39,367 nucleotides of DNA. It comes from Candidatus Rokuibacteriota bacterium (GTDB lineage Bacteria; Methylomirabilota; Methylomirabilia; Rokubacteriales; CSP1-6). A program made the position numbers and the translations under genes. The stretch spans positions 1 through 39,367 of the forward strand of contig QHSQ01000028.1 in NCBI GenBank assembly GCA_003221615.1. Reading direction: 5' to 3'. Under the pieces are notes generated by a model. The model was not told the origin of the DNA. It saw nothing but the letters and a program-made list of their open reading frames with translations, and made no database searches. Below, piece after piece: positions 4,307 to 7,750 of this stretch (the first letter of the stretch is position 1; each line of letters begins with the position of its first letter).

Positions 4307-4852
4307 ATGGCCAGGCTGACACCGATCACCAGCAAGACCCAGGTCGCCGAGAAGGATCAGGCGATCGTCGACTCGATCGTCGCGAGCCGCGGCGCCCTGC
4401 AGGGGCCGTTCACGATGTTCTTGCACTCACCCGAGCTGGCCGGACGTCTCGCGCATCTCGGCGCCTACGTCCGCTTCGAGGGCTCACTCGACATGCGCGT
4501 GCGCGTGCTCGCCGCGATGACCGTGGCGCGCGAGCTCGAGGCCGTGTACGTCTGGGGGGCGCAGACCGGTGGCGCCCGACGGCTGGGCGTGCCGGAGTCC
4601 ACGATCACCGCCATTCGCGAGAATCACAGCCGCGGGATCCCGGCCGAGGACGCCCAGATCGTCGAGTTCACGCGGCAGCTCATGCGCAAGCATCGGGTCG
4701 ACGAAGCCACCGTGAAGGCGCTGACCGGGCGCTTCGGCAACGACGGCTTCATCCAGCTCACCGGCGCGATCGGCTACTACAGCATGCTGGCGATGACGGT
4801 GAACGCCTGCGAGCTCGAGGCGGCGCCCGGCGCCGAGGTGCTGAAGGCCTAG
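4307..4852 (+). CDS. Carboxymuconolactone decarboxylase (AhpD-like) family protein
   Basis: The protein is 181 residues from the ATG at 4307, with a strong AAGGAGG Shine-Dalgarno at 4295-4301. It is an all-helical CMD-family protein: ELAGRLAHLGAYVRFEGSLDMRVR leads into the core helix LAAMTVARELEAVYVWGAQTGGARRLGV. The CxxC of AhpD peroxidase reductases is absent. The His usually found after the Trp in the decarboxylase-type motif (E...W..H) is Gln here (WGAQ), so classical chemistry is doubtful. It follows the molybdenum hydroxylase by 26 nt and probably shares its transcript, which suggests a role in ring or lactone catabolism. Its TAG overlaps the stop of the convergent selenoprotein gene. 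Confidence 0.85.
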   Translation: MARLTPITSKTQVAEKDQAIVDSIVASRGALQGPFTMFLHSPELAGRLAHLGAYVRFEGSLDMRVRVLAAMTVARELEAVYVWGAQTGGARRLGVPESTITAIRENHSRGIPAEDAQIVEFTRQLMRKHRVDEATVKALTGRFGNDGFIQLTGAIGYYSMLAMTVNACELEAAPGAEVLKA

Positions 4853-6450
4853 ACGATCTTCCGGGTCACCGACTTCGAGGTGCCGAAGGTCGGGATGAAG
4901 GCCGAGTGCTTGCCCGGCCCGCCGGTCACCACGATGTGGATGTCCTCCGGCTTGCCGACGATCGGGCAGAGCGCCTCGTCGTCGTTCTGGTCGACCCAGT
5001 CCGGCCAGTTCTCTGCCTTGTACATCGCGCGCAGCTTGAGCAAGCCGACCTTGTTGCGAGCGCGCTCGTAGAGGAACTTCTGCACGTCGCCCCTGGACAT
5101 ATCGCCCGAGGCGATCGTGTGCGCGTGCTCCGGGCCGAACGCCACCAGGACGTCGCCGCGAACCACGGAGCCGGCGTTGTTGTGGCCGATCGTCGTCATC
5201 GTGTCGGCGACGACGGTCAACGTGGTCTCGGCCGACGTGCAGACGTGGTCGTTGATGTTGTGCGGGCCCTCGCCGGAGAAGACCGTGACGGTGCTGTCGC
5301 CCCTGCCGAACCCGCGCGTCACCCGGAAGGGTTCCCAGGGCGTGGCGGCCTCGTTCTCCGCGACGCAGTAGCTGAACTTGGCCGGCGAGCCGTGCGTGGC
5401 CTGATCGCCCTCGCCCGGGATGCCGCCGCCGACGTTCATGAGGACCAGCCGCATGGCCCGGCCGATCGACGCGTTGGCCCGGAAGCCCGGGCCGAACGCG
5501 CCGTGGCGGAAGTTGAGCCCGAGCTCCTGGACGATCGGGCCCGAGACCAGCATCAGGACCGCGCAGGGATGCGTGGTCGCCTGGACGCTGTAGAGACCGA
5601 ATGCGGGATCGGCCGCGGCCTGGAGCGCGGCGATCAGCACGGGCATGTATGGTGGCCGGCAGCCGGCCATCACGGCGTTGATCGCGATGTTCTCCACCGT
5701 GGCCTCGGCCCACCGGGGCGGCACGACCGCGATCACTTCGCCGGCGCGCCGGCCCGAGCCCGCGATCATCGCCTGGACGCGCTCCGCGATCGGCAACACG
5801 AACGGCAGACCGTCGGTGAACCGCCGCGCGTGAAAGGTCTCCAGGGCTTCGTCCTCGTCGGCGAACGTGAAGCGCGGGCTCACCGCCGATGCGGCGCCCG
5901 AGGCGACGCTTGCCGGACGAGCCGCGGGGTCACTCGTCAGGCCGCGAATCACCTGCGGCAGCGCGTCCTCGGCGCGCTGGTGGATGACCGTGAGGGACTC
6001 ACCGCCGATCGGATGCTTGATGATGGCCAGCGGCAGATCCGGCATGCCCAGGTTCTTCGATTCTTCGCGCGCCAGCCCGATGAACGCCTCGGTACAGATG
6101 GTCACCGTGGCGATGCCCTTGCGCTCCAGCTCGACCGAGTCGTGGATACACCACGACGTGCACGAGCCTCAGTCGCTGATCGCGGTGATGACCGCGCCGA
6201 CCTCCTTCGCGTAGGCGTCGAGCCCGTCGGCGCCGATCGCGGCGTTGGGCTTCTGCTTCGTGACGGTGCCGGCCACCGGGTGACTCTTCCCGAGCAGCTC
6301 GACCACGCGCTGCTGGAGCTCGAGCGAGTTCGGCTTGTTGTTGTTGAGAATGCCCAGGGTGACGCCGTCGAGGGATCGCAGGCGCGGCGCGAGCGGCTGC
6401 GACCCGGCCCGGTTGATACCCAACGGGCTCAGCACGGTGATCGAGCTCAT
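4849..6450 (-). CDS. UGSC-family selenoprotein fused to a large uncharacterised domain
   Basis: Conceptual translation needs UGA at 6171-6169 read as selenocysteine. It then gives 533 residues with Sec94 in the motif U-G-S-C (Sec94, Cys97). Both halves are in the same frame with no indel: VGAVITAISD before the UGA, GSCTSWCIHDSVELERKGI after. The ATG at 6450 has GGGAGGA 7 nt upstream. Residues 1 to about 171 form the UGSC domain, which includes LGILNNNKPNS near the start and ALPQVIRGL at the end. Residues about 190-533 form a second domain (GLPFVLPIAERV, VPPRWAEATVENIAINAVMAG, VFSGEGPHNINDH) that I cannot assign. U-x-x-C suggests a thiol/selenol redox site; substrate is unknown. A SECIS-like hairpin follows the UGA. 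The 3' end overlaps the CMD gene by 4 bp (CTAG), and the CoA-transferase gene is divergent. Confidence 0.85.
6139..6157 (-). promoter_or_regulatory. Candidate bacterial SECIS hairpin downstream of the in-frame UGA
   Basis: On the minus-strand RNA, 11 nt after the UGA, a perfect 7-bp stem GUCGUGG/CCACGAC closes a 5-nt loop UGUAU. The loop begins 19 nt after the UGA and has G as its second base. This agrees with the known bacterial SECIS model: a short stem-loop immediately 3' of the UGA inside the coding sequence, with a G in the first two loop positions. It is the expected binding site for SelB. Confidence 0.7.
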
Positions 6451-6470
6451 GTGAGTCCTCCCGGCTTGTA

Positions 6471-6562: not shown

Positions 6563-7750
6563 ATGAGGCCATACGAGGGCATCAAGATCATCGACATCAC
6601 GCATGTGCTGGCCGGGCCGTTTGCGGCGTATCAGCTGGGGCTTCTGGGAGCCGACGTCATCAAGGTCGAGCACCCGACGGAGTACGACCAGAGCCGCGAT
6701 TCGGGCGGCGACCGCGCCCTCAACCAGCAGCAGATGGGAACGGGCTACCTCACCCAGGCCTCGAACAAGCGCGCGATCACCTTGAACCTCAAGCACGAGA
6801 AGGGCCGGGCAATCTTGAAAAAGCTCGTGAAGGACGCCGACGTCCTCGTGGAGAACTGGCGCTCCGGCGCCTTCCCGGCGCTCGGGCTCGGCTGGAACGA
6901 CCTCAGGCCGCTCAATCCGCGGCTGATCTACTGCTCGATGACCGCGTTCGGCCAGGAAGGCCCGCGCGGCGTGCAGACGGCCTACGACCAGCTGATCCAG
7001 GCGACGTCAGGCATGATGGCCATGACCGGCACGCCGGACGTGAACCCGATCAAGACCGGCGCTCCCGTGATCGACTACGCCACCGGCACCATGTGCGCCT
7101 TCGCGATCTCGGCCGCACTCTTCCAGCGCGAGCGCACGGGCCGCGGCCAGTATATCGACAGCGCGATGCTCGACGTATCGCTGATGCTGATGGGCTCGCA
7201 CATCACCTCGTACCTGCGCACGGGCCACGAGCCCAGGCCCAAGGGCAACCGGATGGACCGCGCCAGCAGCCAGCTCTACGAGGCCAAGGACGCGCCCCTG
7301 ATGATCGCCGCCGGCAACCGCGGCCAGCACGAGCGGTTGTTCCGCGCCGTCGGCCGTCCGGACATCGCCGCGCAGTCGACCCACGACGAGCGCGAGGAGC
7401 TGTACGACCAGCAGACCGAGGAGCTCCAGAAGATCATCGAGCAGAAGACCGCCGACGAGTGGGAGCAATACCTCCAGGGCAGCCACGTCCCGGCCGGCCG
7501 TGTGCGTCGTCTCTCGGAGTCGCTGGCCGACCCGCAGCTGAAGGCACGGAACGTACTGCACCGGCACGAGAAGATCGAAGGCATTGAAGGCCCCGTGACC
7601 GTCCCGCTCGCCGCATTCAAGTTCGCCGACGGCGGCCCGAGTATCGAGACCCCGCCGCCGCGCCTGGGCCAGCACACCGACGAGGTGCTGGCGAGTCTCG
7701 GCTATTCGAAAACCGAGATCGCGAAGCTGCGCGACGAGGGCGCGATCTGA
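6563..7750 (+). CDS. Family III (CaiB/BaiF) CoA transferase
   Basis: The protein is 395 residues, normal for the family, with CGGGAGGA upstream of the ATG at 6563. The N-terminal Rossmann-like segment VLAGPFAAYQLGLLGADVIKVEHP is typical of CaiB/BaiF transferases. NKRAITLNLKHEKGR and the conserved GAPVIDYATGTMCA follow. Asp171 in that last motif aligns with the catalytic aspartate that forms the acyl-anhydride intermediate in formyl-CoA transferase. The C-terminus closes with PPPRLGQHTDEVLASLGYS. The enzyme moves CoA between carboxylic acids; donor and acceptor cannot be read from sequence. It is divergent from the selenoprotein gene and may belong to the same catabolic neighbourhood. Confidence 0.92.
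   Translation: MRPYEGIKIIDITHVLAGPFAAYQLGLLGADVIKVEHPTEYDQSRDSGGDRALNQQQMGTGYLTQASNKRAITLNLKHEKGRAILKKLVKDADVLVENWRSGAFPALGLGWNDLRPLNPRLIYCSMTAFGQEGPRGVQTAYDQLIQATSGMMAMTGTPDVNPIKTGAPVIDYATGTMCAFAISAALFQRERTGRGQYIDSAMLDVSLMLMGSHITSYLRTGHEPRPKGNRMDRASSQLYEAKDAPLMIAAGNRGQHERLFRAVGRPDIAAQSTHDEREELYDQQTEELQKIIEQKTADEWEQYLQGSHVPAGRVRRLSESLADPQLKARNVLHRHEKIEGIEGPVTVPLAAFKFADGGPSIETPPPRLGQHTDEVLASLGYSKTEIAKLRDEGAI

Follow-up and report, generated by a model that had tools for sequence, protein, structure and literature searches.

Two open reading frames on the minus strand of this DNA are parted by a single TGA, which raises the question of whether they are two genes, the remains of one, or one gene in which UGA is translated as selenocysteine (Sec), and of what such a protein might do. 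In the window, that is, the whole stretch of 39,367 nucleotides that was analysed, positions 4849-6450 are indicated by sequence evidence, with a probability of about 0.93, to be a real gene of the UGSC selenoprotein family, whose UGA is decoded as Sec to give one two-domain product of 533 amino acids. This soil bacterium very probably reads a UGA in the middle of the gene as selenocysteine and so makes one protein, not two fragments. The features of the locus are as follows.

4849..6450, minus strand: predicted selenoprotein gene, 533 amino acids including Sec94 at the UGA; ends at TAG
6456..6462, minus strand: Shine-Dalgarno-like GGGAGGA, with a spacer of 5 nt to the ATG
6169..6171, minus strand: in-frame TGA (predicted Sec94, motif D-U-G-S-C-T-S-W)
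6139..6157, minus strand: SECIS-like hairpin, 7-bp stem, UGUAU loop, second loop base G
5935..6435, minus strand: UGSC domain (PF24696), about residues 6-172
4852..5883, minus strand: C-terminal domain, residues 190-533; also occurs as a separate gene
4307..4852, plus strand: carboxymuconolactone decarboxylase-like gene (PF02627), convergent; its stop overlaps the selenoprotein stop by 4 nt
6563..7750, plus strand: CoA-transferase family III gene (PF02515), divergent

One reading frame across a UGA codon

Translation of the minus strand from 6450 to 4849 confirmed what the initial annotation had reported, namely that the two frames share one phase and are separated only by the TGA at 6171-6169. 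This codon, at residue 94, is the sole internal stop, and the frame is otherwise open to the TAG. The start ATG at 6450 is preceded by GGGAGGA with a 5-nt spacer, and the Sec motif of the predicted protein is U94-G-S-C97. The further proposal, that the frames join as one UGSC-family protein with Sec in U-G-S-C, is supported by profile searches with the Pfam UGSC family (PF24696, cut-off 25 bits), in which the 93 residues before the TGA score 48.4 bits, the part after it 83.5 bits and the joined sequence 153.8 bits. Each half alone, searched as had been suggested, matches the family independently, and the two matches fall in consecutive parts of the profile. The NCBIfam UGSC equivalog, NF041046, gives 118.6 bits, a little short of its curated cut-off of 125, and the protein is therefore filed under PF24696 and not under NF041046. 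For the same reason, automated annotation might plausibly divide 4849-6450 into two genes, as had been anticipated.

Conservation of the UGA codon

Homologous stretches were collected from 30 loci of class relatives and 80 loci of named genomes, some genomes being present in both sets. Codon 94 is TGA in 105 of the 106 stretches and TGC in the remaining one. The stretches that share the TGA come from many phyla, reach down to about 34% identity and comprise 101 distinct 90-nt sequences, and the codon is also found in 33 out of 33 distinct further UGSC stretches from the genome itself and its class relatives. Homologues that lack both Sec and Cys and end at the same stop, which had been named as evidence that would speak against the selenoprotein, did not appear; one or the other residue is kept at this position. 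In the alignment A1, which has 72 rows, all members match PF24696, 34 columns are invariant and both halves of the protein are clearly constrained. A1 holds 72 of the 75 full-length stretches, from which L049 and L055 (a TAG) and L104 (four TGA) were left out; the window itself took the place of L017; despite two TGA each, L020 and L021 were kept; and L022 gave no tblastn match. The only Cys form seen is L056, from a Sphingomonas MAG.

A hairpin preserved downstream of the UGA

The 7-bp hairpin with a G-containing UGUAU loop, which the initial annotation had placed 11 nt after the UGA, is present at 6157-6139 with the stem GUCGUGG/CCACGAC. Its folding energy is unremarkable (z -0.88, with 43 of 200 shuffles folding at least as well), and an Rfam scan of the window returned no family at its gathering score. 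Since the energy is not exceptional, the case for the hairpin rests on conservation. Among 101 distinct sequences, the codon that carries the loop G is TGT wherever it encodes Cys (73/73) and AGT wherever it encodes Ser (27/27), with a single Leu CTT; background use in the full-length genes is 19% TGT among Cys codons (81% TGC) and 6% AGT among Ser codons. The Ser codon in the stem is TCG or TCA in all 101.

Among 106 distinct 45-nt sequences, changes on both sides of the stem were found at pairs 14-32 (GC, AT), 17-29 (GC, GT, AT), 18-28 (TA, GT) and 20-26 (GC, CG). As 18 standalone-paralogue sequences had been chosen with a pattern that fixes positions 13-17 of the 5' arm, the pairs free of this selection bias are 18-28 and 20-26. 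The seven pairs are standard in 105 or all 106 sequences, save the outermost, 14-32, which is standard in 100 and missing in six; the loop G is missing in one (in L107). The standalone UGSC paralogues have S-S-G-S-V-L-D after the Sec in place of T-S-W-C-I-H-D, yet they retain the hairpin. In the Cys homologue L056, the site reads TCC/TGC/CAT, by which stem and loop codon are broken and the hairpin is lost. No synonymous change separates codons 80-118 from those of the two nearest orthologues (90% identical), against 75 and 69 such changes gene-wide; as unchanged stretches of similar length occur elsewhere, this is no more than consistent with a constraint imposed by the hairpin. Judged from these patterns, the downstream hairpin is preserved at the RNA level. 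Two divergent fused UGSC copies in the same genome (C147 and C595, loci L146 and L147) were left out of the pair analysis; they keep the TGA, lack the common hairpin and have other hairpins predicted.

Selenocysteine machinery and genetic code

The assembly to which the window belongs (7.24 Mb, 96.5% complete, 8.6% contaminated) encodes tRNA-Sec (69.8 bits), selA and selB together on contig C263 and selD on C106, all over their cut-offs. The four genes that the initial annotation had proposed to look for are thus all found, and the case of a genome with no such machinery, which would have counted against its reading, does not apply. The selD gene (L014) is itself interrupted by an in-frame TGA, with a strong hairpin after it, and SelD of this genome is probably a selenoprotein too. 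TGA is still a normal stop, as the XDH-like and CoA-transferase genes beside the locus terminate in it, and no internal TGA was found in eleven other genes checked.

Beyond this genome, selA was found in 38 of the 42 genomes reached through the 80 loci, and in 37 of 40 TGA-form genomes once the Cys form L056 and L053, a locus without UGSC, were removed; it was not found in the genome of L056. In the class, 72 of 95 genomes have UGSC, with 352 matches in total and one TGA in each among the matches listed, and the median per genome in the window's family (57 genomes) is six, with a range of 2 to 12. Within these 95 genomes, co-occurrence with selA is uninformative, since selA is nearly everywhere in the class (83/95): it is present in 64 of the 72 genomes with UGSC and in 19 of the 23 without (Fisher p 0.48, no association). 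Eight UGSC genomes showed no selA, some of them listed as 95-100% complete (G053, G060, G087).

These results bear on several other ways of explaining the interrupted frame. If the gene were decayed, the TGA being a nonsense mutation and the halves its remnants, the frame would be interrupted in its own genome, as is observed; decay is nonetheless extremely improbable given the recurrence of the same TGA in 105 of 106 stretches of widely differing identity, the constraint on both halves and that on synonymous sites over the hairpin, a TGA common to several phyla together with an RNA-level signal being unexpected of a decaying gene. An altered code, in which this lineage would use TGA for one of the ordinary amino acids, would likewise open the frame and has hardly any chance of being correct, with TGA ending the neighbouring genes and absent from their interior, selA, selB, selD and tRNA-Sec in the genome, and TGA-form homologues spread over many phyla. 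UGA recoding generally competes with termination, which lends some credit to a partial read-through that would leave the 93-residue N-terminal piece as a second product. This piece is only half of a UGSC domain and bears no sign of a separate function, and such a product seems quite improbable. Translation through the UGA as Sec appears, by comparison with these explanations, very likely.

A second domain, fused or encoded separately

UGSC is a known selenoprotein family, of which the window gene is a further member. The protein shares with the family (PF24696 / NF041046; 'UGSC-containing', Zhang and Gladyshev 2008) the domain, the Sec in U-G-S-C and the SECIS-like hairpin after the UGA, and differs from it in falling slightly under the NCBIfam cut-off and in its second domain, which is about 340 residues long. 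The UGSC-family reading of the initial annotation holds for the N-terminal third, which is all that the UGSC domain occupies; the remainder, the second domain, is absent from that annotation and matched no consistent Pfam or NCBIfam family. A fusion of UGSC to an unnamed conserved domain of unknown function was already reported in 2008 (UGSC/Unknown_1, Figure S1A of PMC2398784). The window protein very probably shares this architecture, its second domain being presumably the one of that figure. A 2026 review includes the UGSC family, describes the functions of nearly all such families as largely uncharacterised, and states, via its reference 66, a number of 63 selenoprotein genes for a Methylomirabilota MAG (PMC13188914). 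No paper on this gene appeared in the literature listings examined on selenoproteins of Methylomirabilota or Rokubacteria and on selenocysteine in Rokubacteria, which does not prove its absence from print.

Seven UGSC matches over the cut-off, each with one TGA, are found in the genome of the window. Four are fused to the C-terminal domain in a single frame (C83, which is the window, C37, C595 and C147, the second domain of the last being matched in part only), and three have it as an adjacent gene, in both orders: UGSC precedes the C-terminal domain in C572 and follows it in C329 and C234. A further contig, C442, has a C-terminal domain without UGSC. Elsewhere in the class, at least 12 same-strand pairs with the C-terminal domain first were found among the matches listed (G010, G011, G014, G016, G017, G018, G019, G078, G080, G083, G084 and G094). 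As the two domains occur both fused and as adjacent genes, it is argued that they work together, and a partnership between them is likely. Fused and standalone UGSC genes also lie within a few kb of each other on the same strand (e.g. G041:C113, G042:C152, G059:C212 and G079:C12), and close-set genes of this kind could possibly be multi-subunit clusters. In L042, L044 and L045, an extra C-terminal domain match lies just downstream.

What might readily pass for two hypothetical proteins is in this way confirmed as one predicted selenoprotein, and several such genes are found per genome in these bacteria. This analysis adds models of both domains, a C-terminal domain to which no Pfam or NCBIfam family matches consistently, the split versions in both gene orders and the number of UGSC matches in the window's family, at a median of six per genome. 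The UGSC family gains a concrete two-domain anatomy, fused or split in both orders, together with a testable biochemical idea.

Gene neighbourhood

The gene is flanked by the divergent family III CoA-transferase gene and by convergent carboxymuconolactone decarboxylase-like and molybdenum hydroxylase genes, and this arrangement is retained in two close relatives. A carboxymuconolactone decarboxylase-like gene also lies directly upstream, on the same strand, in the betaproteobacterial loci L111, L119, L120, L121 and L126. The proteins of the window, L111 and L126 (three of six) are at or over the PF02627 cut-off, those of L120 and L121 are under it, and L119 gave nothing. The other copies in the genome have varied neighbours, mostly of transport or catabolism, such as binding proteins, transporters, TauD, a short-chain dehydrogenase, an amidohydrolase and a cyclase; a lone copy of the C-terminal domain adjoins MreB/MreC and a DEAD-box helicase. 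In a scan of 107 neighbours, out of 140 crude ORF calls at 36 loci, TctC receptors account for 22, a count that has no background rate beside it and for which enrichment is not claimed.

Possible function

Synthesis of the protein would require SelB with Sec-tRNA(Sec) to decode the UGA at 6171-6169, aided by the hairpin at 6157-6139, and the 533-residue product would consist of the N-terminal UGSC domain, a flexible linker and the second, unnamed domain. Sec94 is likely to be catalytic. Like its counterpart in glycine reductase protein B (GrdB), a distantly similar protein, it would be the nucleophile or a redox residue. The C-terminal domain would be an obligate partner that shapes substrate specificity, and the paralogues of one genome would handle different small compounds imported for breakdown. 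Taken jointly, these proposals are tentative, with odds a little short of even.

The resemblance to GrdB and PrdB, the selenoproteins of glycine, sarcosine, betaine and D-proline reductases, consists of the UxxC motif, low-scoring profile matches over the Sec region and probable work with a partner subunit. TIGR01917 gives 20.7 bits over the Sec region (E 1.6e-4; curated score 602.2) and TIGR01918 14.4 bits (curated score 65.45), and weak GrdB similarity at E<=1 was found in 38 of 72 alignment members. The window protein differs in remaining far below all curated NCBIfam cut-offs for GrdB and PrdB, and in a second domain unlike any listed family. The GrdE profile (PF09338) had no match in the genome; the same search matched no control genome either. 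In the model, Sec94 is predicted at a helix N-cap after a core strand, and the N-terminal domain appears to resemble flavodoxin/PurE/receiver-type folds. A precedent is offered by FarB/FarE of fluoroacetate-degrading Synergistota, for which PMC10838667 proposes that Sec is the nucleophile of protein-B-type complexes, each specific to a substrate. As here, one genome has several paralogues; these hosts differ in being anaerobes with GrdB/GrdE homologues.

The weak similarity, the modelled position of Sec94, the gene context and this precedent point to nucleophilic chemistry of the GrdB kind with a variety of small substrates, which may be correct, if with somewhat less than an even chance; it is weakened by the GrdB scores far under cut-off and by the varied neighbours. 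The main rival is that Sec is inserted into a general thiol or peroxide redox protein and not into a substrate-specific GrdB-like enzyme. The UxxC motif would fit such a protein, as would the redox role expected for the UGSC family in 2008 (PMC2398784, section 9) and the carboxymuconolactone decarboxylase/AhpD-type neighbour seen here and in five betaproteobacterial loci, three of these six reaching the Pfam cut-off. The predicted fold of the N-terminal domain, the direction of the weak similarity, the uptake and catabolic neighbours and the several paralogues per genome speak against it, and a general redox role is a serious option that we would put just under evens. A broader version of the GrdB-like reading is doubtful: UGSC and its partner might form a separate GrdB-type branch in soil and ocean bacteria, beyond the classical amino-acid-fermenting anaerobes, in which every paralogue, whether fused or made from two genes, would be an enzyme specific to its substrate, its Sec would displace a leaving group from a small carboxylate-type compound and the C-terminal domain would be a new family replacing GrdE. 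Two other frames in the genome, on C145 (L187) and C393 (L188), are GrdB-like (PF07355) and are cut by a TGA, in T-P-T-U-P-N-C and V-P-S-U-P-V-C respectively, which makes them candidates for further selenoproteins.
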